IMG/VR virus record: IMGVR_UViG_3300000228_000004
Span: 1 to 64,000 of that record
Length of the DNA stretch: 64,000 nt
Direction: 5' to 3' (one strand)
DNA from: a virus
The position numbers were made by a program, and so were the translations under genes. Below, piece after piece: positions 2,926 through 59,512 of this stretch; position 1 is the first letter of the stretch; every line of letters begins with the position of its first letter. The notes under the pieces are model-generated. The model saw only the letters and a program-made list of their open reading frames with translations, did no database searches and had not been told where the DNA came from.

Positions 2926-3291
2926 TTATTTAGTGATGTATTCCGATAATCCGTATTTTATGATGTCATCTTCTTTGAGTTGAAATTCGACTTCTTGATT
3001 TTTTCCCAAACATTTTCCTATACCAGTAGCCCCAGATAATAATATCACCTTATATTTGTTGGTTTCATAAAATGGGGTTGGGTAGATGTCAACAAGTTGT
3101 TTTTTCCAAAAAGGGAATACCGCGTTACCTTTGTCTAAAGAACCACCCAGATAATATTCATCGGTTATGAACTCTTGAATAGTTGGTGGGGTTTCATTAT
3201 ACCCGTTTGCTTTGGAATATAAACTATAGAGGTACTTTCTTTCTTGTGAATTGATAGCCTTGACACCATTTTCATTGAGTTTATACGCCAT
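2926..3291 (-). CDS. Terminase large subunit, N-terminal fragment plus N-intein
   Basis: A 121-residue ORF. Residues 1-93 resemble the start of phage terminase large subunits (EYYLGGSL, FPFWKKQL) and end in a Walker A lead, GATGIGK. At Cys94 the extein stops and a 28-residue N-intein begins (CLGKNQEVEF...). It starts with the required Cys and resembles the shorter N-intein at 24344 (CLGSETQIPV). The insertion site is the residue after the Walker Lys. The matching C-intein and rest of the ATPase are not in this window: the next gene is an endonuclease, then an unrelated small gene. Terminase identity is by local similarity and is less certain than the intein. Confidence 0.65.
   Translation of the reverse strand: MAYKLNENGVKAINSQERKYLYSLYSKANGYNETPPTIQEFITDEYYLGGSLDKGNAVFPFWKKQLVDIYPTPFYETNKYKVILLSGATGIGKCLGKNQEVEFQLKEDDIIKYGLSEYITK
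2954..2975. repeat. 22-bp direct repeat, copy 2 (inside N-intein)
   Basis: This copy lies inside the N-intein coding sequence (EDDIIKY). It matches 1051-1072 exactly and marks the upstream edge of the inserted endonuclease module. Confidence 0.85.
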
Positions 3292-7398: not shown

Positions 7399-7635
7399 TC
7401 AAAGGCTATATTGAGCCAACGCAATAACAATAGGTTCTTCATCATTGGCTAAATCAAGGGAAGTACCGTTGGGTTCTTTAAATTGACCGACTAAAGTATA
7501 CCATCCATGTACCTCGACTGCTGAAAAAACCATATCCGCTAAGAATGTTCTCCCCGAAAGTACTTCTTTATTTTTATAATACCCGTCCCTTGGGTGTATA
7601 TCTGTGATGGTTAATTCTAATTTTTTACTTGGCAT
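7399..7635 (-). CDS. Small protein, unknown function
   Basis: A 78-residue protein (MPSKKLELTITDIHPRDGYY...). The sequence suggests a small beta-rich domain; no motif is recognised. It has its own promoter element overlapping the end of the helicase gene upstream. The RBS AAAGGGAATAAAA precedes the ATG. Confidence 0.75.
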   Translation of the reverse strand: MPSKKLELTITDIHPRDGYYKNKEVLSGRTFLADMVFSAVEVHGWYTLVGQFKEPNGTSLDLANDEEPIVIALAQYSL

Positions 7636-23206: not shown

Positions 23207-24280
23207 TTACGCGTATTCTTGAACCAATCTTTCCCAATCTGATAATCCAGCCTTTTTTATTGCTATAGCGGCGACAACTGCTCTCATAGTAAGTGGCGCA
23301 GTCCCAGCTGAAAGTCGCTCTAAAATAGTTAATTTCACATCCATGTCAACCTCTGGTTCAATATATGGAAGAATAGATTTTATTCTATATATTACATCTT
23401 CTCTTTTCAATTGAACATCCATAAAGAAACTTCTAGACATAATTGCTGACATATTCGGGTCTTTCTCAAAGTCTGTGGCTGGTTTATTGGTGATAAATAT
23501 GATTCTTGAGGAAAAGTCAAATTTACTTGGTAGCTTTATTTTAGTACCAACATCTTCAGGTCTTTCTCTTAGAGCAGTTTCCAGTTCAATTAGGTATTCT
23601 TCTTTATCACTAGGTTCCATGAGTTCTAGGTTCACCGTTGCTCTACTTGGCCACTCTACTTGTCTCACTTGATAAGTATCAATTGCACCCTTCAGTATAT
23701 TAACCGCATCTTTATCACTCCAAACTGAGTCACTGTCATCATAAACGATAGTTTTATCGTTTCTGTTGATGAATAAATCCATATATAACCCAAATGGTGA
23801 TAATTTAGCACCCTTTCTGTGTCTCCATTTAGCATCCGGACCTTCAGGGGAACCGAGAATATCTTTCATCGTTTTTTCAACATGGAAAGTGTTGTGGTGG
23901 ATAAATCCTTGAGAATCTTGGTAAAGGTGAGTTTCTGAATCAACTGCTAAGTCATATACTAATTCTTTTCCTGATTCTTCTATACCAGTAATGGTAGCTA
24001 ACCCGCGTTTCATAGGTAAAGTGTCACCGACCTTTAATTCTTTTACCCATTTTTGTGAATCCAATCCCATCAACGCGTGTTCATCAGCCACTCTAAATGT
24101 CGCTTTATCAGTTATTATTTTTAGGATTGGTTCTTCTTTTACTACCATCCCTACTACCCTTACAAATTCACCATTTTCATCTAAGACATGAAATTCTGTT
24201 TTAGGTGTGTAACTTTCGTATAATTTAAATTCGTGATTTTCTTTTTCTGATATTGTATCAAAAACTTTTTTTATTTCCAT
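23207..24280 (-). CDS. C-intein plus C-terminal half of an AAA-type ATPase
   Basis: A 357-residue ORF. Residues 1-130 are a large C-intein: a block B-like segment (KIITDKATFRVADEHALM, ~55-71) and blocks F/G (VYDLAVDSETHLYQ ... FIHHN), followed by Thr131 as +1 residue. The C-extein (227 residues) has IVYDDSDSVW as probable Walker B, then FSSRIIFITNK as a sensor-1-like strand, and an Arg-rich region. With the N-half encoded just upstream, trans-splicing would rebuild a Walker A of GAAGLGK-T and a 500-residue ATPase. The start has its own RBS (GGGAAGAC). The substrate of the ATPase is unknown. Confidence 0.85.
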   Translation of the reverse strand: MEIKKVFDTISEKENHEFKLYESYTPKTEFHVLDENGEFVRVVGMVVKEEPILKIITDKATFRVADEHALMGLDSQKWVKELKVGDTLPMKRGLATITGIEESGKELVYDLAVDSETHLYQDSQGFIHHNTFHVEKTMKDILGSPEGPDAKWRHRKGAKLSPFGLYMDLFINRNDKTIVYDDSDSVWSDKDAVNILKGAIDTYQVRQVEWPSRATVNLELMEPSDKEEYLIELETALRERPEDVGTKIKLPSKFDFSSRIIFITNKPATDFEKDPNMSAIMSRSFFMDVQLKREDVIYRIKSILPYIEPEVDMDVKLTILERLSAGTAPLTMRAVVAAIAIKKAGLSDWERLVQEYA

Positions 24281-24343: not shown

Positions 24344-25204
24344 TTATAGCCCGAAGACAGGTATTTGAGTTTCAGAACCTAAGCATTTACCCAACCCAGC
24401 TGCACCAGCGACGATAAGACCGTTTGCACCACCAGTTGCTACAATTTTTGTTAATTTCTCGATATCACCAAAAACAAGCTCTGGGTCAGACCATTTCTTT
24501 TCAGAAAGAACTTTTTCAGCACCTTTAAAAACAGCCTCTGTTGAATTTTTTTCAACCGTATTTTTTTCAACCTGGAAGCCCTTGTATTCTTCTTTATCCC
24601 ATTTTCCAGCATCTTCTAGTTTATTGATGTAACCTTGGTAGGTATCTTCAGCTTCTATGTATTCTACGCCCATTGCAGTACCGTAAGCAATCATCTTTTT
24701 AGGGGGTTTGTTACTATCTTTTATCGCTTCTGTTAATGGGTAACTCCCTTTCGAAGGTTCAAAAGTGTTATTTTCATTGACATGCCCACCGCTTAAAATG
24801 ACATCTTTCAACTCTTTAACCACATCAATAGCATTCATCCAGTCAGCTATTTTAATAGTTAAAGTCGGGGTATCCCATCTTTTTTTACCATCTTTCGGAT
24901 CCCAGTAATCAATAACATTGATTTGAAACAAAGAAGATTTTGCTTTTTGGAGCCAACCAAACCTAATCATAAACCCAGCTTCATTCATGAATTTAAAACC
25001 TTGACCAGCACCTAAGCCTTTTTTAGTGAAACTTTCTTTTCCCAAAGAACCACCCAACATTTTGAATTCACCACCATTTAAATGATGCCCAAGTACTGTA
25101 GCCAAAAGGGTTGATACCTTTTGCAGTGAAGCTTCACTGAACTTTGCTTCATTGAGCGAAGTTTCGCTAATTTCTAATTTTTCCAATATTCTTTTTAAAA
25201 CCAT
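24344..25204 (-). CDS. N-terminal half of AAA-type ATPase plus 13-residue N-intein
   Basis: A 286-residue ORF. Residues 1-273 form the N-extein, ending in GLIVAGAAGLGK, the start of a Walker A loop. Residues 274-286 (CLGSETQIPVFGL) are the N-intein, beginning with the nucleophilic Cys and followed at once by a stop. The N-terminus MVLKRILEKLE resembles the MLKEIxE leader of the small proteins. The partner lies 63 bp downstream, with no endonuclease gene between. A split this close to the start of an intein is atypical; I know of comparable N-pieces of about 16-25 residues. Confidence 0.85.
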   Translation of the reverse strand: MVLKRILEKLEISETSLNEAKFSEASLQKVSTLLATVLGHHLNGGEFKMLGGSLGKESFTKKGLGAGQGFKFMNEAGFMIRFGWLQKAKSSLFQINVIDYWDPKDGKKRWDTPTLTIKIADWMNAIDVVKELKDVILSGGHVNENNTFEPSKGSYPLTEAIKDSNKPPKKMIAYGTAMGVEYIEAEDTYQGYINKLEDAGKWDKEEYKGFQVEKNTVEKNSTEAVFKGAEKVLSEKKWSDPELVFGDIEKLTKIVATGGANGLIVAGAAGLGKCLGSETQIPVFGL

Positions 25205-30804: not shown

Positions 30805-31902
30805 CTATTCGAAGTTGACTTCTATCTCACGAATTGGATATCCAGCAGATATATATTCATTCAACCTTTCATAAGAATGTTTGAGAACATAATTCTTATT
30901 TGTCTCTCTACCAGATTTTGATTTCGTACTAAAGTCATCGATGAAATCAAAATATCTCATCATATCTTTGTCTTCGTGGAGCCTCATTCCTCTTCCGATT
31001 GATTGATTTAATCTGATTGATGATTTTGTACTAGAAGTCGCGAAAAAGTTATGTAATCTTTTGACATTCATCCCAGTCGAAACTGTTCCTGCGCTTCCTA
31101 TGATTATTCCGTCATCGACCTTCTCAAGTAATGATCTAATTTCATTCCTCATTTCTCCCTCAATAGACCCCTTTATAAGGTAAATATGGAAATCACTGAG
31201 TACCTTTATTCGTTCTATTTCACTATCACTAAAGAATTTTTTCAGTATTTTGATGTCTTTTTCGGTTAAATCAGTTAAGACAAACAGGTTATTAACATCA
31301 CTTGTTTTTGAAAGGAAAGTTTCAACCCGTTTTGGCGTCACTTTTTCCATAATTTCAGGGGCATCAACATTGAATTTTTCCATCAGAATTAACTCAAGTA
31401 AGTATGTACCATGTGATATAGAGTTATACATCACTAAAGAATTTCCATATTTTTGTGTAGTTTGTATTACCATTTTTGCTATAAACCTATTCCGCTTGGA
31501 GTGTTCTTCTATGAACTTAGTTTCCTTTTGGTAGTTGTTTAATTTCTTCACCACTGCCTTATCTGATAATGAATAATTCATATAAACTGTGACGATAGTG
31601 ACTGGTGTAGCTAACCCTCTTTCAATAAGCCCTTGGGGGGTGATTATTCTTTCAGATTTTCCCAAAGTTGATGAGAGCGAGAATCTTCCTTCGAATGTCT
31701 TCGGTAGAGTACCCGTGAGCCCAACTTTATAAAGGCAGTTATTTGATATCTCTAGGAGCTTCGTCAGTGACTCCCCTGTCGCAAGATGACAATTAGAAAC
31801 ATTTAAGCCTTCTGCAAAATAATTATGATTATCTTCAACGTGTAAATTATATGTGTCCCCTGAATAATCGATTTCTTTTATTGAAATTACATTAGACATC
31901 AT
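30805..31902 (-). CDS. uvsW: C-intein plus C-terminal half of UvsW helicase
   Basis: A 365-residue ORF. Residues 1-37 are a C-intein (DTYNLHVEDNHNYFAEGLNVSN) ending in Asn37, with Ser rather than the usual His before it; the +1 residue is Cys38. The extein starts CHLATGESLTKLLEISNNC, which lines up with T4 UvsW CHLATGKS...NNC, then KVGLTGTL, and ends with the motif VI-like QSIGRGMRLHEDKD. Splicing to the half at 33114 would rebuild the DECH box (VDE-CH). UvsW branch-migrates recombination intermediates and unwinds R-loops. The gene overlaps the endonuclease remnant by 11 bp. Confidence 0.92.
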   Translation of the reverse strand: MMSNVISIKEIDYSGDTYNLHVEDNHNYFAEGLNVSNCHLATGESLTKLLEISNNCLYKVGLTGTLPKTFEGRFSLSSTLGKSERIITPQGLIERGLATPVTIVTVYMNYSLSDKAVVKKLNNYQKETKFIEEHSKRNRFIAKMVIQTTQKYGNSLVMYNSISHGTYLLELILMEKFNVDAPEIMEKVTPKRVETFLSKTSDVNNLFVLTDLTEKDIKILKKFFSDSEIERIKVLSDFHIYLIKGSIEGEMRNEIRSLLEKVDDGIIIGSAGTVSTGMNVKRLHNFFATSSTKSSIRLNQSIGRGMRLHEDKDMMRYFDFIDDFSTKSKSGRETNKNYVLKHSYERLNEYISAGYPIREIEVNFE

Positions 31903-33074
31903 CGTAATCCTCGATGCTTTTTATGAGTTTTTCAAGAGAATTCTTATACCATATTTTAATTATTTTTTCTTTTTTAAAAATAGCCACTTTAAATGAATTC
32001 TCGCCATAAAAGGTTATTTGAAAAAATAGCCCCATTTCTTTCATCTTAAACTGTAAATTGTTTAATTGTTCTTTCAATTTTTCTCCTAGATTCTTTTTGA
32101 TGATATTATATTTTTCTTTGATTTCCGTTAAATGTTCGATAAAATATTTTTCCGTGATAATTTTAAAATTACCACTTGAAAATTCTTTTGCTGCGATAAA
32201 CTTGACGAAATTCATTTCTGAATTTATTTCTGAATTTGGTTTTATTTCATATAAAACCCCATCTTTTTCGAAATCAACTATATATTCTATTCGTTTTATG
32301 TAATTCATAAGGTATTCTTATATTTTCATAATTGTAAGTTGGGTGGAGTATGTGGAATATTGCTTCCCAAGAACTCCTAAATGGTAGACCATTCACATAA
32401 CACCTTGTTTTACCCCAAGAATTCGTTACTGCTGGGGTAAAATCACCATTTAATATTTTCTTTTTCATTATCATAGATAATTTTTCGTTCCTCTTTCTTA
32501 AAACTTCTCCTGACATCCTTGAGTTAGGGTTCCTGAGCCCAATAATATTTCGAGAATGTATTTTATTTTCACATTCAAGAGAACAAGTTTCCCGATACCT
32601 AACATGCCTCGTTTTAAACATTTCAAACATTTCGCTCCGTTTTAGACGTTTTTCACAATTTTTACAATTACCCAAAGGATCATAAAAATCTTCTACTTCG
32701 AGATCATTATTCCTATAAAGGGCAGTTTCTGATCTCCCATATTTTAGGAAAATTTTAAAATACTTATTGCCTGATAATAAATGCATACTTTCGTGTAATT
32801 TACTACTGCTGAATTTCAATTTTTTTAATTCTTTTTTAAAATCTTCATCAGAAATTTGTGTAATATTTTCTGGAAAAAATACGGAGTCCAATTTAATGAA
32901 ATCAAATTTTTTTAATTGCTTGAATGAGAATTTCAAATTATCATCGTCTCTTATGTTGTATATTTTTCTAAATTTTAATACTATTTTTGTTTTTATCGAA
33001 GGATGTTTGAATTGTTGAGGATTTTTGAAGAATTGTTTAAAATCTTCTTTTGTTTCGATGTTTTGGATAAGCAT
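31892..33074 (-). pseudogene. Homing endonuclease inside the split uvsW, broken by a 2-nt loss
   Basis: Two overlapping ORFs (32274-33074, 266 residues; 31892-32308, 138 residues) read as one nuclease. The first has paired zinc-knuckle Cys (CKNCEKRL, CSLEC), a DNA-binding segment (GLRNPNSRMSG), and the start of a nuclease domain (FRSSWEAIFHILHP, IRIPYELHKTNRI). The second continues YIVDFEKDGVLYEIKP with the catalytic D..EIK. The reading frame is lost in an ATATAT tract at the junction; one more AT would give NRIYIVDF. This may be a decayed homing gene, or two parts that still associate. Confidence 0.75.
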
Positions 33075-33113
33075 GTAATTTCCTTGCTTTATAATATAAG
33101 GTAGACCTTAAAT

Positions 33114-34094
33114 TTATTTAATTTCAAAAATACTATCTCCAACCACTAACTCATCAACTCTTTTCCAAACTTCCCCAGTAAAAACTTTATGGTTGCCAGT
33201 TATCCTCATAACTTTCCCGTTTTCAGTTTTCACCTCGAACATTTTTTCTTTGGAAATATTTTTGTGAATTTTCTTAATGGGTTTATATTCTAAAACGCCA
33301 GTTTCTTCGTTTCTAGTTAAAACTAGATTCCCAGTTTTTAAATCTTTAATCTTAACTTTATAATTCGGTACATCAACCAATGTATCTGGGTGTAGGCACT
33401 CATCAACTAAAACATAATCGAGAGCTGAAAATTCAGTACTATTCATCAACATAGCTGACTGCCAAGTAGAAGTTGTCATTAATTTATCGAATGTTTTGAC
33501 CTTCCCAGCAAATATGGTATGGAAATGTTTATCGAGGTCTTCTTCAGTCATTCCGTAACTAGAAAAATCCGAGCGCATTTGTTCAGCCAACCCAACATTC
33601 GGTACTATCAATAAACCTCTTCTTTTCTTCCTTGCGTGGAGCGTCATGATCAAATAACAAATAAGTGATTTTCCGCTCCCAGTAGCTGATACCAATATAG
33701 ATCTCGGGTGGTTAAATGAGTGTAAAACTGCGTCTATTTGATAATCATATGGTTCAAACGGTAAACCCACTACTTTGACATGTTCTAGTATTTCTTCTCT
33801 AGACACATTCTCTTGTACCCTGATTGGGGAATATTCTTCAGATATATTATCCGCGTATCGTTTTAATATAGTCGCAACCAATCCCTTTGGAATTTGCATA
33901 CTCATATCTTTGTTCATTTTAAAAAAATACTTTTTTCCGTCCCAAATTCCCGCACGAAATTTTGGAGAGAATCGATATCCTTCGACATAAACAGATAAAT
34001 CATCCATCAACTTTATTCTTAGTTTAAGAGCTTCTTCGTCATTTTCTTCAAACTTTATAACGGAGAAGCTTTCATTTTTATCTTCTATTGTCAA
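33114..34094 (-). CDS. uvsW: N-terminal half of UvsW helicase plus N-intein
   Basis: A 326-residue ORF with a TTG start. The extein (232 residues) contains the UvsW N-domain pattern (VEGYRFSPKFRAGIWDG), Walker A VSATGSGKSLICY, LIVPNVGLAEQM and TTSTWQSAM, and stops at YVLVDE, the first half of the DECH box. The N-intein (94 residues) starts CLHPDTLVDV (block A) and has MRITGNHKVFT as block B. The partner C-intein is at 31902. In between lies a homing endonuclease remnant, the classic fractured-gene order. Confidence 0.92.
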   Translation of the reverse strand: MTIEDKNESFSVIKFEENDEEALKLRIKLMDDLSVYVEGYRFSPKFRAGIWDGKKYFFKMNKDMSMQIPKGLVATILKRYADNISEEYSPIRVQENVSREEILEHVKVVGLPFEPYDYQIDAVLHSFNHPRSILVSATGSGKSLICYLIMTLHARKKRRGLLIVPNVGLAEQMRSDFSSYGMTEEDLDKHFHTIFAGKVKTFDKLMTTSTWQSAMLMNSTEFSALDYVLVDECLHPDTLVDVPNYKVKIKDLKTGNLVLTRNEETGVLEYKPIKKIHKNISKEKMFEVKTENGKVMRITGNHKVFTGEVWKRVDELVVGDSIFEIK

Positions 34095-34109
34095 TTAAAA
34101 TCCTTTATG

Positions 34110-35903
34110 TTATTTTACTTCATATTTCTTAAAGTAAACTTTGTTACCTGAGTCATATATCTTCCTATAACCATTATTGTACATATTCTCAGTTTCTGAT
34201 AAATCTTTGTCAAATATATCTAGGATTTTATGGAGCTTATGTTTTTGGCATTTGTTCCTTGACTCCAGAAGCATAGACCCGTCCTTAAAATAGAAGTAAT
34301 TCGCTTTGGATGAATGGCTATATGTGAAACCGATAGCATCATAAAGGTTTCCCTGTGACCATCTCCTATTCGCGTATGTGACCAATGATTCTGGGGAATA
34401 GTTTTTCTCGAAATATTTTAGTAACTTACTCCCAGCACCAACTACAGTATGGTTCAATTTTGAACAAAATCTAATCAATTCATATTGATATTCTTTTGAA
34501 AACCTCGACTTTCCGAAAGTCATCAAACTCACTAAAGAACCAGCGTGGTATAACCCTATTCGAATTGATGATAGCCCCTCACCTTGTAAGTGGTTTTCGT
34601 TTTCAAAATTACTAGCAACCCTGCTAGAAACTTCCATTATATCACATTTTCTAGCATATATTCGCTTAGTTTTACCAAGCTTCGAATTTAGGACTGATTC
34701 CCAAATCTCCCTCTTTTGCAACCATTCATTTTCAAATATATGAAATAGCTGAAAGCCATTTTCTTCACAAAGATCAGTTTTATCTTCGTGCACTGACTTT
34801 AATAGTTTCTCTTTCGTCGAATTATCGAACATAGAATACTTAGATTTCCCAAAAGAATGGAACATCAACCCGTCATATTCGACGCCAAACTTATGTTCGT
34901 AAGAGATGATATCTATTTCTTTCGGCTTTATTAAACTCCTGTCATTTAGTAAAAAAGACTTATTGCCCCCTAAAAAATTAAAAATTTCAACCTGAGTTTT
35001 CCATTTGTTATCAGGGGACACCCCGAATTTTAACATGGTTATATTTGCGTTTGAAAGTGACACATTGAAAAATTCCATATATTCACCCCTTTTGAATTTG
35101 TTGATGCCGTCTTTGGTCGTGATAAAATTTTTTGCTATGTATCGTTTATTATTGAAAAATACAAAATTTTTGATATGCGACTGAGAAGAATACGGTGTAC
35201 CGCATTTCTTTAAGTTCGTTTCTTTTATTTTATCCTTTACCTGTTCTGTCATAGCTGGGTTTATCACGCCATATTTTTTTAAGTTAGTTTCTTTTATTTT
35301 CTGCTTGACTTCTTCGTTCTGTAAGCTACATTCATAACCGTATCTAATGAGGCTTGTCTCTTTAACTTTTTGCTTTACCTGATCTGACTTTAATTGGTGT
35401 TCATGCCCATATTTTTTTAAGTTCGTTACTTTAGTCTTTTTATTAACTTCTTCGTTCTGTAAGCTACATTCAGAACCATACCTTTCAAGGTTCGTTTCTT
35501 TGGCTTTTTGCTTTACCTGTTCTGACTGAGAAGAATGTAGCGTCCCGTATTTCTTTAAGTTAGTTTCTTTTATTTTCTGCTTGACTTCTTCGTTCTGTAA
35601 GCTACATTCAGAACCATACCTTTCAAGGTTCGTTTCTTTTATTTTATTCTTTTTTTGATGAGACCCAGAACTACAATGAACCGAGCAAAAGGTTTTGTAT
35701 GATTTGTACTTAAATTTTATCGGTTTACCACATTCACGAAGTGGTGGTTCAAGTATTTGGTGTTTCACCGAGTACAAAAATTCTTGAATAGTTTCAAAAG
35801 GGCGTATGTCAATATTCAAGGATTTGATAATTTCTGTGGATTTTGTACTCATATGCCCAATTTTTGTGATAACCCCGATATCACTAAGATCTTCTATTGT
35901 CAA
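34110..35903 (-). CDS. Large homing endonuclease with KETNLxKYG repeats
   Basis: A 597-residue protein starting at TTG (35903) after AAGGGGATATTA. Residues ~100-240 are about six 24-residue repeats (QKIKETNLKKYG..., SEQVKQKAKETNLERYG), which are common in phage homing proteins and likely bind DNA. The nuclease core is KEIDIISYEHKFGVEYDGLMFH, and the C-terminal module (HLQGEG, FGKSRF, NRRWSQG, YRKIYDSGN) matches the 1063 ORF. The first 15 nt, TTGACAATAGAAGAT, are identical to the start of uvsW just downstream. Confidence 0.82.
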   Translation of the reverse strand: MTIEDLSDIGVITKIGHMSTKSTEIIKSLNIDIRPFETIQEFLYSVKHQILEPPLRECGKPIKFKYKSYKTFCSVHCSSGSHQKKNKIKETNLERYGSECSLQNEEVKQKIKETNLKKYGTLHSSQSEQVKQKAKETNLERYGSECSLQNEEVNKKTKVTNLKKYGHEHQLKSDQVKQKVKETSLIRYGYECSLQNEEVKQKIKETNLKKYGVINPAMTEQVKDKIKETNLKKCGTPYSSQSHIKNFVFFNNKRYIAKNFITTKDGINKFKRGEYMEFFNVSLSNANITMLKFGVSPDNKWKTQVEIFNFLGGNKSFLLNDRSLIKPKEIDIISYEHKFGVEYDGLMFHSFGKSKYSMFDNSTKEKLLKSVHEDKTDLCEENGFQLFHIFENEWLQKREIWESVLNSKLGKTKRIYARKCDIMEVSSRVASNFENENHLQGEGLSSIRIGLYHAGSLVSLMTFGKSRFSKEYQYELIRFCSKLNHTVVGAGSKLLKYFEKNYSPESLVTYANRRWSQGNLYDAIGFTYSHSSKANYFYFKDGSMLLESRNKCQKHKLHKILDIFDKDLSETENMYNNGYRKIYDSGNKVYFKKYEVK

Positions 35904-51206: not shown

Positions 51207-52388
51207 TCAATGCGTTTTCAACCACTCATCGGTTTGTTTTATTTCAGTATCTGAATCATTTGGATTTCGTTTATACCTATTTCTTGGTCTTCCAGTTTTC
51301 TGTTTCACAGAGACTATTTTTTGTAATTCACAGAAACTGTTTTCACACATCATAACATTTAATTTTCGATCTTCCTCTGGTAAATGGTCAAAAAGTTCAC
51401 TATAATCAATGTGAAGTCCGCGTTTTTCCCATTCAGTCTCTATATTATCCCTGACCCAGAATAATGCTTCTTCGTGGGTCATACCGTCCCTGTCTTCCAT
51501 TAAAAGGTCTATCCCTCTATCACATCCTGGCCCAGACACTACGAATTCATTTTCACTGAACTTGAATTCTGGTATATATGTTAAGTCAACAAATACTTGG
51601 TACGCCAAAAACCCAGCCAATCCTGGGATTTCTCTCAAAATATTGAATACTTCCTCTTGAGTATTCGCCCCTTGAACTCGAGTGGATATATCCGTGTTTT
51701 TAACCCATTGTATCATGTGTATCATCCTAGTTGGCATATTTTTTTCTACACCAACTATTTCATACCCTTCATTTTCTTTAATATACCCCTTTGCTTCTTT
51801 CCAGGTCATTTCTTCTGTGTCAATATGACCTTCTTTTCTTACCTCAACCACCATACCCGAATTCGTGCATTCGTACTCTAATGTTTTAGGGAAAGCCCAA
51901 CTTGCTTTGAGCCCACCAGTGTTAAATGCTGGTGTGAAAAATGCATATTTCGGATTTTCTTTAGCATATTCGATAAATATTTCACGGAACGCGTCTATGT
52001 CTAAATTGTCAAAATCTTCTATGTAACCACCAAATAATTCTGATGTACTAGACTTGTTATATGTTCTGAAGAAGATAGAATTGAGGATCTTTACTTCTAG
52101 TGTTAGATTCGGGTTTGTGCTAATATTCTTAATCAACCATTTAGACTCTCTATCGAGTTCACGCCTTACATTAGTGAATCTATAATTCTTGAACACTTCA
52201 TCGTCTGTCCATTCTTGTTGTGGTAATTTTTCAATTTCTTTTCTTTTGTGTATATTGTGTCTTTCAGACATGAACAAATTATGATATCTTAGCACCTCTT
52301 CATTTAAAATCGGTTTCGCGTTTTTTATCTTTTCGATATCAACACCACAATATCTAATATCGGCTTCCTTTGTTTTCATTAAAACCAT
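51207..52388 (-). CDS. Alpha-glutamyl/putrescinyl-thymine pyrophosphorylase-like protein
   Basis: 393 residues. A DNA-glycosylase-like helical fold: FRTYNKSSTSELFGGY (~105), then a helix-hairpin-helix-like LREIPGLAGFLAYQVF (~255) and VVSGPGCDRGID (~290), the GPG..RG motif of the aGPT-Pplase group. Such proteins are proposed to displace pyrophosphate from activated hmU and attach glutamate or putrescine. It lies between polymerase and dUTPase genes and overlaps the polymerase start by 10 bp. Confidence 0.75.
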   Translation of the reverse strand: MVLMKTKEADIRYCGVDIEKIKNAKPILNEEVLRYHNLFMSERHNIHKRKEIEKLPQQEWTDDEVFKNYRFTNVRRELDRESKWLIKNISTNPNLTLEVKILNSIFFRTYNKSSTSELFGGYIEDFDNLDIDAFREIFIEYAKENPKYAFFTPAFNTGGLKASWAFPKTLEYECTNSGMVVEVRKEGHIDTEEMTWKEAKGYIKENEGYEIVGVEKNMPTRMIHMIQWVKNTDISTRVQGANTQEEVFNILREIPGLAGFLAYQVFVDLTYIPEFKFSENEFVVSGPGCDRGIDLLMEDRDGMTHEEALFWVRDNIETEWEKRGLHIDYSELFDHLPEEDRKLNVMMCENSFCELQKIVSVKQKTGRPRNRYKRNPNDSDTEIKQTDEWLKTH

Positions 52389-53548
52389 TCCTCAAGTTTA
52401 AAATTTTGCTTCATATCATAACCAACTGCTTCTAACATAAGGTTAAGTGGTGATATGAAATAATCTTCCCACATTTTACCCCTATCAACATATTTTTCAA
52501 GCCCAGAGTCTGTTATAAAGTCAGAATCTAGAAACCCGATTATATCATCACCTAAAATGTTGGGTTTCTTTAAAATACAATATTTTATTTTATCACTGTC
52601 TGTTATTTTAGGGTATTTGGATAACCCAGTTCTTTCTAAAAAAATATTGTAATTCATTGCCGCCCTTACATTCATTGGCGCAGTTAAAATTTTTCCATTT
52701 TTCTTAGTGGTGAATTTACCTATACCCCCCTTATAATCCAAAGACCCGATACCAGAAACCCTGCATATGTCACCCAATGGTGCTTTGTAGAATTTCTCTT
52801 CTATCTCAGATATAGAAGCAATCGTTTCTTTTGCATCGTTATCTAGAATTACATTCACCATATCTTTGAGATATTTCCTACAAAAGGGCGGAGTAGAAGA
52901 TCGTACTATCTCCAACCCAGTGACCGCCAATTTAGGGTCATCGACAAGTATAGACCCTTCGTCCCAAACGGCACGCAAAGCATATTTTTTCTTTGCAACA
53001 AACATCCCTTTATCGGCAATTTTTTCAAGTTTTGCCCCGATGGGCTTGGCACTAAATGCGTTGAAATTGTCTGAGAAAGAATCTATGTATTCTTGGACCC
53101 ATACATCGAGGTATTTATGATCAAAATTAACAAGTTTATCAAGTATTTCGTGATTATTAGCGGTGTCGAATTTTTTTACTAATTCATTAAGAGTAAAATA
53201 CACAGAGTCGGTGTCACCATAAACTACAAAGTCAATATTGGTATTAAGAACACTTCGTAACTTCCCATTTACATAATTCGCCAATCCTTGTATAAATATC
53301 CTACCGTTCCCAGTGATACTTGCAGCAACATCTCGATTGAATAGTAAAAAGTGTATATTTGCTAGAGCACCATATAATGAGTTCATCGAAATCTTTAGAG
53401 CCATCTGATATACATCGAAATAAGCAATTCTAGTGTCTATATATTTCATATCTGCCGTTAAACCACTAACATCCAAATCGTTGATTTTATCAATCGTCAT
53501 TGAACCGTCTTCTATACCATCGTAAATTTCTTCTATTGTCATGTTCAC
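52379..53548 (-). CDS. 43: DNA polymerase, C-terminal piece (gp43C)
   Basis: 389 residues: a leader (MTIEEIYDGIEDGSMT) then family B motif B, KISMNSLYGALANIH (~55); motif C, FVVYGDTDSV (~108); a KKKYAL thumb motif (~180); and a C-terminus with LMLEAVGYD. It corresponds to the half of T4 gp43 from the fingers tip onwards. It must pair with the 58401-57136 piece. No intein is visible at either edge. Confidence 0.92.
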   Translation of the reverse strand: MNMTIEEIYDGIEDGSMTIDKINDLDVSGLTADMKYIDTRIAYFDVYQMALKISMNSLYGALANIHFLLFNRDVAASITGNGRIFIQGLANYVNGKLRSVLNTNIDFVVYGDTDSVYFTLNELVKKFDTANNHEILDKLVNFDHKYLDVWVQEYIDSFSDNFNAFSAKPIGAKLEKIADKGMFVAKKKYALRAVWDEGSILVDDPKLAVTGLEIVRSSTPPFCRKYLKDMVNVILDNDAKETIASISEIEEKFYKAPLGDICRVSGIGSLDYKGGIGKFTTKKNGKILTAPMNVRAAMNYNIFLERTGLSKYPKITDSDKIKYCILKKPNILGDDIIGFLDSDFITDSGLEKYVDRGKMWEDYFISPLNLMLEAVGYDMKQNFKLEEWF

Positions 53549-54903: not shown

Positions 54904-55359
54904 TTAAAGTTCTTCCTCTATCGCGGTTTCTTCTATCTTACATATAAACAGTGCACCCTCTTCTTTACCTTCCTCTCCTGTATAAAAACCACTTGTGATA
55001 AAATAATTACAAGTTTCACTGTCGTATATAACCCACTTCCACTTAGTCACCGTTTTCGGTTTTATGCGATAAGAATACTCAGCATATAGATGCTGAGTGA
55101 ACATATCCAAATCAGTGAGTGTAGTTATTTCCCACTCTCCGTGCAGTGTATTGAGCCATTCAATTTGCGTTTTGTCATCTACGAATTGCTTTCGTAGTGA
55201 TGCATATTCATCGTCTAGTATGTAGATTAAATCCTTATCCCAGCTTGGTAATGTTGTTACATCCCAAAGTTCATCAGTTGGCATCTTACACCATACTATT
55301 GTTCCAACTGGACTATTTGCGAATTTAATCATCTCTTCTTTATGTACTCTGCCCATCAT
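54904..55359 (-). CDS. Tandem paralogue 3 of 3, unknown function
   Basis: 151 residues. Shares with the next two genes a fold marked by W.K (VWCKMPTDELW), LRKQFVDDKTQIEW and YRIKPKTVTKWKWVIYDSET. The stretch TVTKWKWVIYDSET to TGEEG is almost identical to gene 2 (55356), while the rest diverges. Start overlaps gene 2 stop by 4 bp. Confidence 0.75.
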   Translation of the reverse strand: MMGRVHKEEMIKFANSPVGTIVWCKMPTDELWDVTTLPSWDKDLIYILDDEYASLRKQFVDDKTQIEWLNTLHGEWEITTLTDLDMFTQHLYAEYSYRIKPKTVTKWKWVIYDSETCNYFITSGFYTGEEGKEEGALFICKIEETAIEEEL

Positions 55360-55805
55360 TCAACTTCCTTTCTTGTTTCTTCTATCTTACATATAAAAAA
55401 TGCGTTACCATTACCTTCCTCTCCTGTATAAAAACCACTTGTGATAAAATAATTACGAGTTTCACTGTCGTATATAACCCACTTCCACTTAGTCACCGTT
55501 TTTGGTTTTATGCGGTAACAGTCTGATGTATGATTCCACAAGAACCCATCAAATTTTAACAGATTTTCAAAATTGTTTGGAACCCATTTACTTGAACACT
55601 CATCATATATCTCAATCTGTGATGCATTATCTATGAATTGCTTTCGTATTTCTGAGTGCTCGTCATCTACGATGTAGTGGAAATTATTATACCATCCTGG
55701 TTCTACTACCTTAACCCACTCTGTGTGCCTTTTTTCCCTATACCAAACATTTGTACCATCAGGTCTATCCGCCCATCTATTAATTTCTCTTCTATGGTGT
55801 TTCAT
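55356..55805 (-). CDS. Tandem paralogue 2 of 3, unknown function
   Basis: 149 residues (MKHHRREINRWADRPDGTNV). Same motifs as its neighbours (IRKQFIDNASQIEI, YRIKPKTVTKWKWV, FITSGFYTGEEGN). ATGA-type overlaps on both sides. Such TVTKWKWV proteins occur in several phages; their role is unknown to me. Confidence 0.75.
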   Translation of the reverse strand: MKHHRREINRWADRPDGTNVWYREKRHTEWVKVVEPGWYNNFHYIVDDEHSEIRKQFIDNASQIEIYDECSSKWVPNNFENLLKFDGFLWNHTSDCYRIKPKTVTKWKWVIYDSETRNYFITSGFYTGEEGNGNAFFICKIEETRKEVE

Positions 55806-56266
55806 ACTTCAAACTCTCTTTCAGTTTCTTCGATTTTACAAACAAATATATGGAATTTACTTTTTGAACCATCTACATAGTAACCATTTGATATTCTATG
55901 TTCATTCGTTAAGATATCTTTTATAACCCACTTCCACATAGTTACCGTTTTCGGTTTTACCCGATACCTATGCCCCATATCAAGAAATTTCGTTAGGCTA
56001 TCTAGCTCCCGTCTATCAGTTGCTACCCACTTATCATCGATATAGTGGTGCCACTCGACCCTTGTCGGGTCATCAAGGAATTGCTTTCGTATTTTAGCGT
56101 GTTTGTCATCTACTATGTATAAGAGATCTGTATTCCAACTCGGGTGGGCTGTTAGTATCCACTCCAGTTCATTTTGTCTTTTAAACCATACACCAGTTGC
56201 TTCTGGTGCGTCAGCCCAGCGTATTATTTCACTTCTATGCTTTTTCATCTTTTGAATATCCCCCAT
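55802..56266 (-). CDS. Tandem paralogue 1 of 3, unknown function
   Basis: 154 residues from 56266; an alternative start is the ATG at 56248 (MKKHRSEIIRWADAPEATG), which aligns better with gene 2. The C-terminal part (YRVKPKTVTMWKWV) is more diverged than in the other two. First of the tandem set. Confidence 0.72.
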   Translation of the reverse strand: MGDIQKMKKHRSEIIRWADAPEATGVWFKRQNELEWILTAHPSWNTDLLYIVDDKHAKIRKQFLDDPTRVEWHHYIDDKWVATDRRELDSLTKFLDMGHRYRVKPKTVTMWKWVIKDILTNEHRISNGYYVDGSKSKFHIFVCKIEETEREFEV

Positions 56267-57096: not shown

Positions 57097-57141
57097 GTTA
57101 TAATATATTATACCGCAAGTTAGCTTAAAGTAAGGTTAAAC
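57097..57141 (-). promoter_or_regulatory. Phage promoter element
   Basis: GTTTAACCTTA, CTTTAAGCTAA, CTTGCGG, TATAATATATTATAA. The distal half-site overlaps the stop region of the polymerase middle piece. Confidence 0.75.
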
Positions 57142-58401
57142 AGTCTTCAATTTAGCTTGTAATGCTTTATACATTAACATTTTTCTCTTTACTTCTTTCC
57201 TAGTAGAATAAATGTTCCCTACTATTTCGGGTATTATACCCTCATTGTCACGCCTAAAGAAAGCATTCATGCCAAAAGCAACATCATATTTATGCGTAAC
57301 TTCTCTAATTTCAGCAAGGCTATCAGGATTAAGGTACACTTCTTCATGCTCGTGTGTGTGATACTTAGCTCGTAAATTTTTCAATTCTTGAGGCAACTCA
57401 TATTCATTTATATATGTTTCTGGTGACATATTAAAAGCGCGCATACCAAGTAACGGGTACATTGAGTTGACGTCGACTGAAACCAACCAATTATGTTTAC
57501 CCTTTTGTGGTTGTCGAACATAACCACCAATAATTGTTTTATCTAGGCGGCTATGTCTGTCGAACGGCATTACAAGTCCCTCTTTCATAGCAAGGTTAGT
57601 CAGATATTGCCCCCAAGGTTTAACAGTGCCGAAGGAGTCATCCATATTAATACCCATCATTGAAGATAAAATTTTCATAAGCTCTATTAACTTCAGTTTA
57701 TCCTCTAGTTTTTTCAGGAGCAAAACATCTTGTATAGAATATTCTATGAATAAGTCTTTATCCCCGTGATAGAAATCTACTATATCATCAAACTTCCCAT
57801 AGTCAACCTTACCCTCACCAACACCAAGTTCCACTTTAACGATGTTGTCCAATGCGTATGACACTTGTGGCTTAGTTACGAACTTTTTGTATGCTTTCAT
57901 CATATCGATTAGATAAATTCCTTCCCAGTCATAGTTCATCCCTTCCATCGTTTTTATCTCTTTAACTTTATTAATTGGGGATAATCTTCTATAATTCACC
58001 CCGTCCAATTTCATTGCTCTGTTAGTGATATATGGGAAGTCGAATGAATCACCATTCCAAGCAGTTATAACCGTCGGTTTTAAATTTTCAAGTAATTTAA
58101 TAAAATCTTTAAAAAGTTCTTTTTCATCATAGTAGTGTTTGAATATCAAATTATCATATTTCTTAAATTTGGTTTCGTCGACCATTTTGTCTAAACTTAG
58201 AATTATTATCTTGTTGCTATAACTGTCGTATATCTGTATTTGTGAAACTGTCTTTTCAGCAAGCTGAGGATCTGGGAATGACTTATCTGCGTAATAACAT
58301 GAATTTTTAAATAAAACCCATTCATTCAATTCTTCATCGAATACTTCATAGTCAGTATAATCTTCAGCAAGAATCTCCGACATTTTCATTATTTTTTCCA
58401 T
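57136..58401 (-). CDS. 43: DNA polymerase, middle piece (gp43B)
   Basis: 421 residues. It starts with its own GGAGGAA site. SFPDPQLAEKTVSQIQIYD (~38) resumes the exonuclease domain; VITAWNGDSFDFPYI (~112) is Exo II; YSIQDVLLLKKL (~225) is Exo III. Motif A is VSVDVNSMYPLLGM (~310), followed by the start of the fingers (RKEVKRKMLMYKAL). Exo I is on the N-piece (59099); motifs B and C are on the C-piece (52379). Three polypeptides must assemble. Confidence 0.92.
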   Translation of the reverse strand: MEKIMKMSEILAEDYTDYEVFDEELNEWVLFKNSCYYADKSFPDPQLAEKTVSQIQIYDSYSNKIIILSLDKMVDETKFKKYDNLIFKHYYDEKELFKDFIKLLENLKPTVITAWNGDSFDFPYITNRAMKLDGVNYRRLSPINKVKEIKTMEGMNYDWEGIYLIDMMKAYKKFVTKPQVSYALDNIVKVELGVGEGKVDYGKFDDIVDFYHGDKDLFIEYSIQDVLLLKKLEDKLKLIELMKILSSMMGINMDDSFGTVKPWGQYLTNLAMKEGLVMPFDRHSRLDKTIIGGYVRQPQKGKHNWLVSVDVNSMYPLLGMRAFNMSPETYINEYELPQELKNLRAKYHTHEHEEVYLNPDSLAEIREVTHKYDVAFGMNAFFRRDNEGIIPEIVGNIYSTRKEVKRKMLMYKALQAKLKTV

Positions 58402-59098: not shown

Positions 59099-59512
59099 CT
59101 AACTTTTCACCCTAACTCGTATTTCATAGTCTCTTCCGTACTTATTTTCTTCAACAGTTTCTATATCGAAAAACCATATTCGCATATCGTTGTTTTTTCC
59201 ATTATTGAAAAAATTATCTCTTATGTGTTTGTACTCTGGTCTCTGTCCGCCGTATAGTTCTTTACCGAGTGAATCCATCAACCCCTTAAACTCTTTTTCT
59301 TCTTTTGAAGAAGTAAATTCCCTTTTAGACAATTTCACGGATGGGTCTAGTATATATGAAAATTCACCATTTTTATTTTTTTCAAAGTATTCGTATTTTG
59401 GTGATATTTCTTCTATTCTTACTTGGTTCGTGTCAGTGTTCCTTGTTCTGCAAAAGTATTTAAAATCACTTTTCCATACTTTTTCATATTGTTCATTTTC
59501 GTAATCTCTCAT
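59099..59512 (-). CDS. 43: DNA polymerase, N-terminal piece (gp43A)
   Basis: 137 residues. The N-domain (EEISPKYEYFEKNKNGEFSY, LYGGQRPEYKHI) is followed by Exo I, MRIWFFDIETVEEN (~112). The chain then ends (YEIRVRVKS). T4 gp43 continues from DIE directly into the FPDP segment, which is found here on the next polypeptide. The start overlaps the upstream stop (TAATG). Confidence 0.88.
   Translation of the reverse strand: MRDYENEQYEKVWKSDFKYFCRTRNTDTNQVRIEEISPKYEYFEKNKNGEFSYILDPSVKLSKREFTSSKEEKEFKGLMDSLGKELYGGQRPEYKHIRDNFFNNGKNNDMRIWFFDIETVEENKYGRDYEIRVRVKS

Follow-up and report, generated by a model that had tools for sequence, protein, structure and literature searches.

A putative naturally split class-1 intein in the DECH motif of uvsW in a T4-like phage, with an apparently frameshifted endonuclease gene between its halves

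Described split inteins

The closest described arrangement is that of the "fractured genes" which Dassa et al. reportedly presented in 2009 with the split inteins gp41-1, NrdJ-1 and IMPDH-1. As in the locus analyzed here, a split intein interrupts a conserved replication gene, a free-standing endonuclease gene lies between the pieces, and an N-intein of about 100 aa is combined with a C-intein of about 40 aa. The present locus differs in that the host gene is uvsW and that the endonuclease appears to be frameshifted. It is of a known kind, a split intein around an endonuclease gene.

Two other systems share some of these features. The Npu DnaE intein is split at the canonical place and has Ser-Asn before Cys+1 (4kl5, 2keq), as the present intein has, but it is cyanobacterial, has no endonuclease between its halves and keeps the block-F Asp. 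The Aes123 PolB1 intein of T4-like Aeromonas phages is split as well and likewise interrupts a replication gene of T4-like phages; it differs by being cysteine-less and by having another host gene (PMC11923092).

The uvsW locus

The window, i.e. the whole stretch of DNA that was analyzed, is 64,000 nucleotides long and comprises bases 1-64,000 of a T4-like phage record of 110,523 bp. In this record uvsW consists of two minus-strand ORFs with two endonuclease ORFs between them. The features are listed below in the direction of transcription; a slash marks the border between intein and extein, and the basis of each assignment is given in brackets.

34101..34106, minus strand: Shine-Dalgarno-like AAAGGA of the N-half (sequence upstream of the TTG)
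33114-34094, minus strand: UvsW N-half ORF, start TTG, encoding ...ALDYVLVDE/CLHPDTLV...ITGNHKVF...IFEIK and stop
33399..34094, minus strand: UvsW N-extein, 232 aa, TTG start, C-terminal LVDE (Pfam and alignment to T4 UvsW 2OCA)
33396-33398, minus strand: Cys1 codon of the intein (sequence)
33117..33398, minus strand: N-intein, 94 aa, with Cys1 and block B TGNH (TIGR01445, PF14890)
33114-33116, minus strand: stop codon of the N-intein
33081..33085, minus strand: Shine-Dalgarno-like AAGGA of endonuclease ORF 1 (sequence)
32274..33074, minus strand: homing endonuclease ORF 1, 266 aa (alignment and matches to phrog_15427 and phrog_22417)
31892..32308, minus strand: homing endonuclease ORF 2, 138 aa (alignment with relatives, sequence)
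31908..31912, minus strand: Shine-Dalgarno-like GAGGA of the C-half, within the 3' end of endonuclease ORF 2 (sequence)
30805-31902, minus strand: UvsW C-half ORF, start ATG, encoding MMSNVISIKEIDYSGDTYNLHVEDNHNYFAEGLNVSN/CHLATGESL
31792..31902, minus strand: C-intein, 37 aa, MMSNVI...NHNYFAEGLNVSN, C-terminal VSN (TIGR01443); its start overlaps the 3' end of endonuclease ORF 2
31789-31791, minus strand: Cys+1 codon of the C-extein (sequence)
30808..31791, minus strand: UvsW C-extein, 328 aa, from Cys+1 (CHLATG) (2OCA, phrog_9690)
30805-30807, minus strand: stop codon of the C-half

The host gene, which codes for the repair helicase UvsW, was identified with phmmer. Residues 28-233 of the N-half align to T4 UvsW (2OCA/1RIF; E 1e-17), reaching residue 234 of ...NDEC, and from this motif on the C-half aligns to 2OCA (CHLATGKS; E 1e-38). 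Since the halves align on either side of the DECHLATG motif of T4 UvsW, the break is located exactly inside DECH. The N-half matches UvsW_N PF21241 (38.6 bits), ResIII and DEAD, all above the Pfam gathering cut-offs, and the C-half matches the DNA helicase family phrog_9690 (E 3e-63). The two halves contain the N-terminal UvsW domain, the SF2 motifs and the DECH box, collinear with T4 UvsW. An earlier note on this DNA had placed the intein in the helicase DECH motif, and it was right on this point; the N-half ends LVDE and the C-half begins CHLATG, which matches T4 UvsW on both sides. The same note held that a second intact uvsW, together with absence of the spliced product, would refute its interpretation. 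When the 110,523-bp record, which is metagenomic and perhaps incomplete, was searched for a second uvsW or a UvsW-like ResIII helicase, none was found.

Both intein halves are recognized by NCBIfam models: the N-half scores 34.2 with intein_Nterm TIGR01445 (cut-off 24.5) and the C-half 22.5 with intein_Cterm TIGR01443 (cut-off 15.6), and the N-half is also above the gathering cut-off of Pfam Intein_splicing PF14890. The class-1 residues Cys1, TGNH, the C-terminal Asn and Cys+1 are all present in the window. The penultimate His, which is usual in class 1 but not obligatory, is replaced by Ser, and the common block-F Asp by Asn. A group I intron was considered as an alternative to the intein and rejected, since Rfam gave nothing but the tRNA in the window.

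A structure was predicted for a relative in which the same intein is continuous (L086, see below), and the intein halves of the window align with this cis intein with 44 and 52% identity. The AlphaFold model has a mean pLDDT of 69, with values of 77-90 across most of the intein. It matches solved inteins with E-values of 1e-10 to 1e-6, among them gp41-1 (6qaz), NrdJ-1 (8ubs), Npu DnaE and Aes123 PolB1; against gp41-1 E is 3e-9 and TM 0.79 on the target. The predicted Hint fold is that of the cis relative.

Directly upstream of uvsW, at 34110-35903 on the minus strand, lies a free-standing DUF7487/homing-endonuclease-like gene of 597 aa. This gene and uvsW (at 34094) begin with the same 15 bases, TTGACAATAGAAGAT, which occur in only two copies in the window, and it looks as if the DUF7487 gene was inserted at the start of uvsW, copying that start. 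In T4 the matching place is taken by segE.

The endonuclease gene between the halves

The two endonuclease ORFs, at 32274-33074 and 31892-32308, are read in different frames and overlap. ORF 1 carries a Cys cluster, a DNA-binding part and the first half of the nuclease domain before its frame ends in ...NRIYS and a stop; ORF 2 carries the remaining nuclease domain (motifs YIVDF and YEIKP) and is not preceded by a clear ribosome-binding site. ORF 1 matches the endonuclease family phrog_15427 (E 1e-16) and phrog_22417, the family of the Salmonella phage S16 homing endonuclease (E 5e-12). In relatives with one ORF (L004, S16, Proteus phage PM2) the nuclease domain reads RS.WE ... YE..RI.Y ... YI.DF ... 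E.(K/R)P, and the change of frame in the window is located in a short AT-repeat. If this change is not due to an error in sequencing, the endonuclease is frameshifted inside its nuclease domain, and it is probably dead. The earlier note gave the order as N-half, homing gene and C-half. The order stands, but the gene is not intact, being two frameshifted ORFs here and one ORF in most relatives. As in the fractured genes there are two enzyme ORFs with intein halves and, by homology, an endonuclease gene between them; a single endonuclease ORF is found in S16, PM2, L004, L010 and others, not in the window.

It can be argued that the endonuclease is still active, either as a two-chain protein or through ribosomal frameshifting at the overlap of ORF 1 and ORF 2. 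The ATG of ORF 2 is situated inside ORF 1 and the frame stays open for 138 aa, and ORF 1 has a good Shine-Dalgarno sequence. However, the break separates the catalytic Glu (ORF 1) from the YIxDF and ExKP motifs (ORF 2), ORF 2 is without a Shine-Dalgarno sequence, and the related loci are either broken elsewhere (L058, L019) or have a single frame. We consider an active endonuclease unlikely.

The family of the endonuclease was approached through the intact gene of L004. Its AlphaFold model has a mean pLDDT of 80, with values exceeding 90 over most of the nuclease portion, and a PD-(D/E)XK-type core. As Foldseek alone gave no match with E <0.01 for the endonuclease, VIA-align was used, and it gave 3hrl with Z 8.5, TnsA with 8.3, I-Bth0305I (3r3p) with 7.7 and Vsr with 6.8. 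It should be noted that these Z values are moderate, that a Z below 8 can reflect a common arrangement, and that mitoribosomal proteins rank beside these hits (Z 9.8 and 8.8). When the family was compared with PDB sequences there was no match to I-Bth0305I at E <= 1; the single match, with E 0.78, was T7 endonuclease I, and it covers the stretch Y-E / D-F / E-x-K. From the model the endonuclease may be Vsr/I-Bth0305I-like. The nuclease domain of the intact relative may have a fold similar to that of I-Bth0305I, an EDxHD / Vsr-like enzyme, but the conserved residues, W-E ... Y-I-x-D-F ... E-x-K-P, are closer to PD-(D/E)XK, and the conserved E, D and ExK suggest a PD-(D/E)XK variant.

Relatives at the DE/CH site

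IMG/VR was scanned with the pattern HNYFA, six residues, N/CH, which gave at least 119 loci; the letters HNYFA and NCH are demanded by the pattern, so their conservation is no independent evidence. A UvsW-like C-extein is found in at least 57 of the listed loci, and at least 29 distinct loci, including S16, PM2 and the window, are split in both halves at DE/CH. All of these 29 listed split loci have Cys1 and TGNH in block B, and Asn precedes Cys+1-His in all of them, the latter by design of the scan. The 28 loci other than the window, split in both halves at the same site and with the catalytic residues kept, strengthen the reading of the earlier note, a split uvsW in which one Cys serves both as +1 splicing residue and as residue of the DECH motif. 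At the penultimate position 23 of the 29 have Ser, 3 Ala, 2 (S16 and PM2) His and 1 Lys, and the Asn in block F where Asp is usual occurs in 28. The Ser seen by the earlier note is real, but it is not unusual: it is the norm of the lineage (23/29 listed loci) and is also present in Npu DnaE, and we have rejected it as an anomaly. Splicing without the penultimate His is already established (references in PMC4031507).

Most of the 29 listed split loci have a single endonuclease ORF between the halves. It is broken in the window, in L058 and in L019; the break of L002/L058 is at another position than that of the window, and that of L019 at a third. L031 has a short remnant, and three loci are without an endonuclease ORF and yet still split, the gap between the halves being 10 bp in L030, 27 bp in L101 and 69 bp in L075. 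Finally, cis mini-inteins of 130 aa occupy the DE/CH site in two lineages, L086/L125/L065 and L003/L042; in L086 and L003 the Asn is preceded by Ser or Ala. The gene order around the locus in an independent 140-kb contig (L002/L058) is the same as in the window, and the C-halves of the two are 76-77% identical.

Some matches of the scan belong elsewhere. L014 and L091, tried as DE/CH loci, were rejected and excluded from the counts; they are UvsW C-halves with the C-intein at a second site deeper in the gene (HN/CHKLVLEGLFG). L014 also has an HNH-type endonuclease ORF (MNYQRIYENI...; on the minus strand, near position 7501 in the reverse complement). In L055 and L087 inteins are found at a DEC/H site in other SF2 helicases, with an endonuclease-like domain inside one continuous ORF, and L087 apparently has a second intein further along the same protein.

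The order N-half, homing endonuclease, C-half is also found in cultured phages, namely the Salmonella phages S16 and SEA1 and the Proteus phage PM2. S16 (NC_020416; gp114 / gp114.1 / gp115) and PM2 (NC_055727; gp180-182) have the host gene, the DE/CH site, the split and the endonuclease family of the window; they differ by an intact single-ORF endonuclease (291 aa) and by the penultimate His (AHN/C). In their annotation, as in that of SEA1, a hypothetical protein accompanies two or three genes called "DNA helicase", and no intein is named. The same is true of PHROGs, where families exist for the halves (phrog_16259, phrog_9690) and for the S16 endonuclease (phrog_22417). The locus type is thus already present in public genomes; in the open papers examined we found no description of it, nor of an intein in this host gene at this site.

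Selection and movement

The dN/dS of the intein halves (Nei-Gojobori) is below 1 in every pair for which it could be computed, ranging from 0.02 to 0.46. For the window and L058 it is about 0.2, a rough value because the synonymous sites are near saturation.

The identities of inteins and exteins do not follow each other. In S16/PM2 the inteins are 0.90 identical and the exteins about 0.6, and in L010/L032 the values are 0.90 and 0.6-0.7; the opposite is seen in L076/L078 (intein 0.64, extein 0.87) and in window/L058 (intein 0.56, extein 0.70). Among the matches listed the intein of the window has its nearest counterpart in L016, with an identity of 0.60, whereas the extein of L016 is just 0.33 identical. 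This mismatch points to horizontal movement of the kind that a mobile intein homing into one site leaves, and unequal rates of change could be a partial cause. The Mantel correlation between intein and extein similarity is 0.54, and the correlation that remains implies that inheritance and exchange both contribute.

Other loci in the record

Several other genes in the record appear to be interrupted. At 24344-25204 and 23207-24280 (minus strand) of the window there is an apparent split intein in a P-loop, GAAGLGK/C ... HHN/TFHV, the C-half of which matches phrog_1250. The split is atypically early, with an N-intein of just 13 aa (CLGSETQIPVFGL) and a C-intein of about 130 aa, and the ORFs are 63 bp apart. 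An ORF at 2926-3291 (minus), possibly terminase, ends in the P-loop GATGIGK/CLGKNQEVEF... and resembles an N-half with N-intein; after it follows a homing endonuclease of 614 aa (1063-2907, minus; phrog_3339). Beyond the window, at 64363-64920 and 65012-65902 (minus) of the record (G000:C1; L134), uvsX is present in two ORFs with intein halves (VYD/C ... HN/SMNQFD), 91 bp apart and without endonuclease. A Family B DNA polymerase is found in three ORFs (59099-59512, 57136-58401 and 52379-53548, minus) with other genes between them, and Rfam found no intron there. The window also contains three tandem paralogues of about 150 aa (54904-56266, minus) with the common motif RIKPKTVT(K/M)WKWVI, to which a fourth ORF, at 207-554 of L134, is related.

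Discussion

We consider it very probable that uvsW carries a naturally split class-1 intein in its DECH motif, that full-length UvsW is made by obligatory trans-splicing, and that the element was spread by a homing endonuclease whose gene is now frameshifted. The anatomy, the homology, the exact site, the conserved catalytic residues, the stages of endonuclease loss and the mismatch between intein and extein are computed; from these sequences we infer the splicing, the need of UvsW for it, the cutting of uvsW by the endonuclease and the past homing. The proposed mechanism is as follows. The class-1 split intein interrupts uvsW between DE and CH of the Walker B (DECH) motif, and the halves would be translated separately, each from a separate ribosome-binding site. 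The N-intein of 94 aa and the C-intein of 37 aa would then dock to form one Hint domain. Cys1 would form a thioester, which Cys+1, identical to the Cys of DECH, would attack, and Asn37 would cyclise. The Glu of DE would in this way be joined to the Cys of CH, giving a scarless full-length UvsW with ...LVDECHLATG... intact; an unspliced ATPase/helicase would have no continuous motif II. The Vsr/PD-(D/E)XK-like homing endonuclease between the halves may have carried the element from phage to phage, and in the window its gene would have been frameshifted and the splicing halves retained.

The halves are still separate in the endonuclease-less loci L030, L101 and L075, which raises the possibility that staying split is of benefit. 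The split might be kept because dependence on trans-splicing helps the phage, for instance by delaying active UvsW until both halves have accumulated late in the infection, an idea to which we give little credence.

The main alternative is that the halves assemble non-covalently, unspliced, into an active helicase. Unspliced split T4-like genes do have precedent, since NrdA of Aeromonas phage Aeh1 and gp43A/B of phage 25 are split proteins that function by such assembly (PMC2988022). In uvsW, however, the break sits within the catalytic DECH motif, the intein also occurs at this site in cis form, and unspliced assembly offers no reason for keeping intein tails of 94 and 37 aa with their catalytic residues in 29/29 listed loci. 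We regard it as very unlikely. That uvsW is a decaying pseudogene left by a failed homing event is highly improbable: the endonuclease gene is already frameshifted, as this explanation would have it, but the helicase and intein halves are all open and conserved against L002 (the C-half at 76-77%), exteins as well as inteins have a dN/dS far below 1, and both halves have ribosome-binding sites. An assembly artefact in a single metagenomic record is practically out of the question, since the order is repeated in the independent contig L002 and in the complete cultured genomes of S16, SEA1 and PM2.

Obligatory trans-splicing of UvsW is the preferred explanation. The locus has significance in several respects. 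Phage annotation at present treats each half of this gene as a "DNA helicase" gene in its own right and calls the endonuclease hypothetical. The relatives provide about thirty unannotated natural split inteins, mostly without the penultimate His, for work on splicing. Finally, one helicase site presents in related phages a series of states, with the endonuclease intact, broken, or absent from a still split gene, and with a cis mini-intein, so that phylogeny can be used to test individual steps of homing and whether the intein became split or, conversely, fused at the uvsW DE/CH site.
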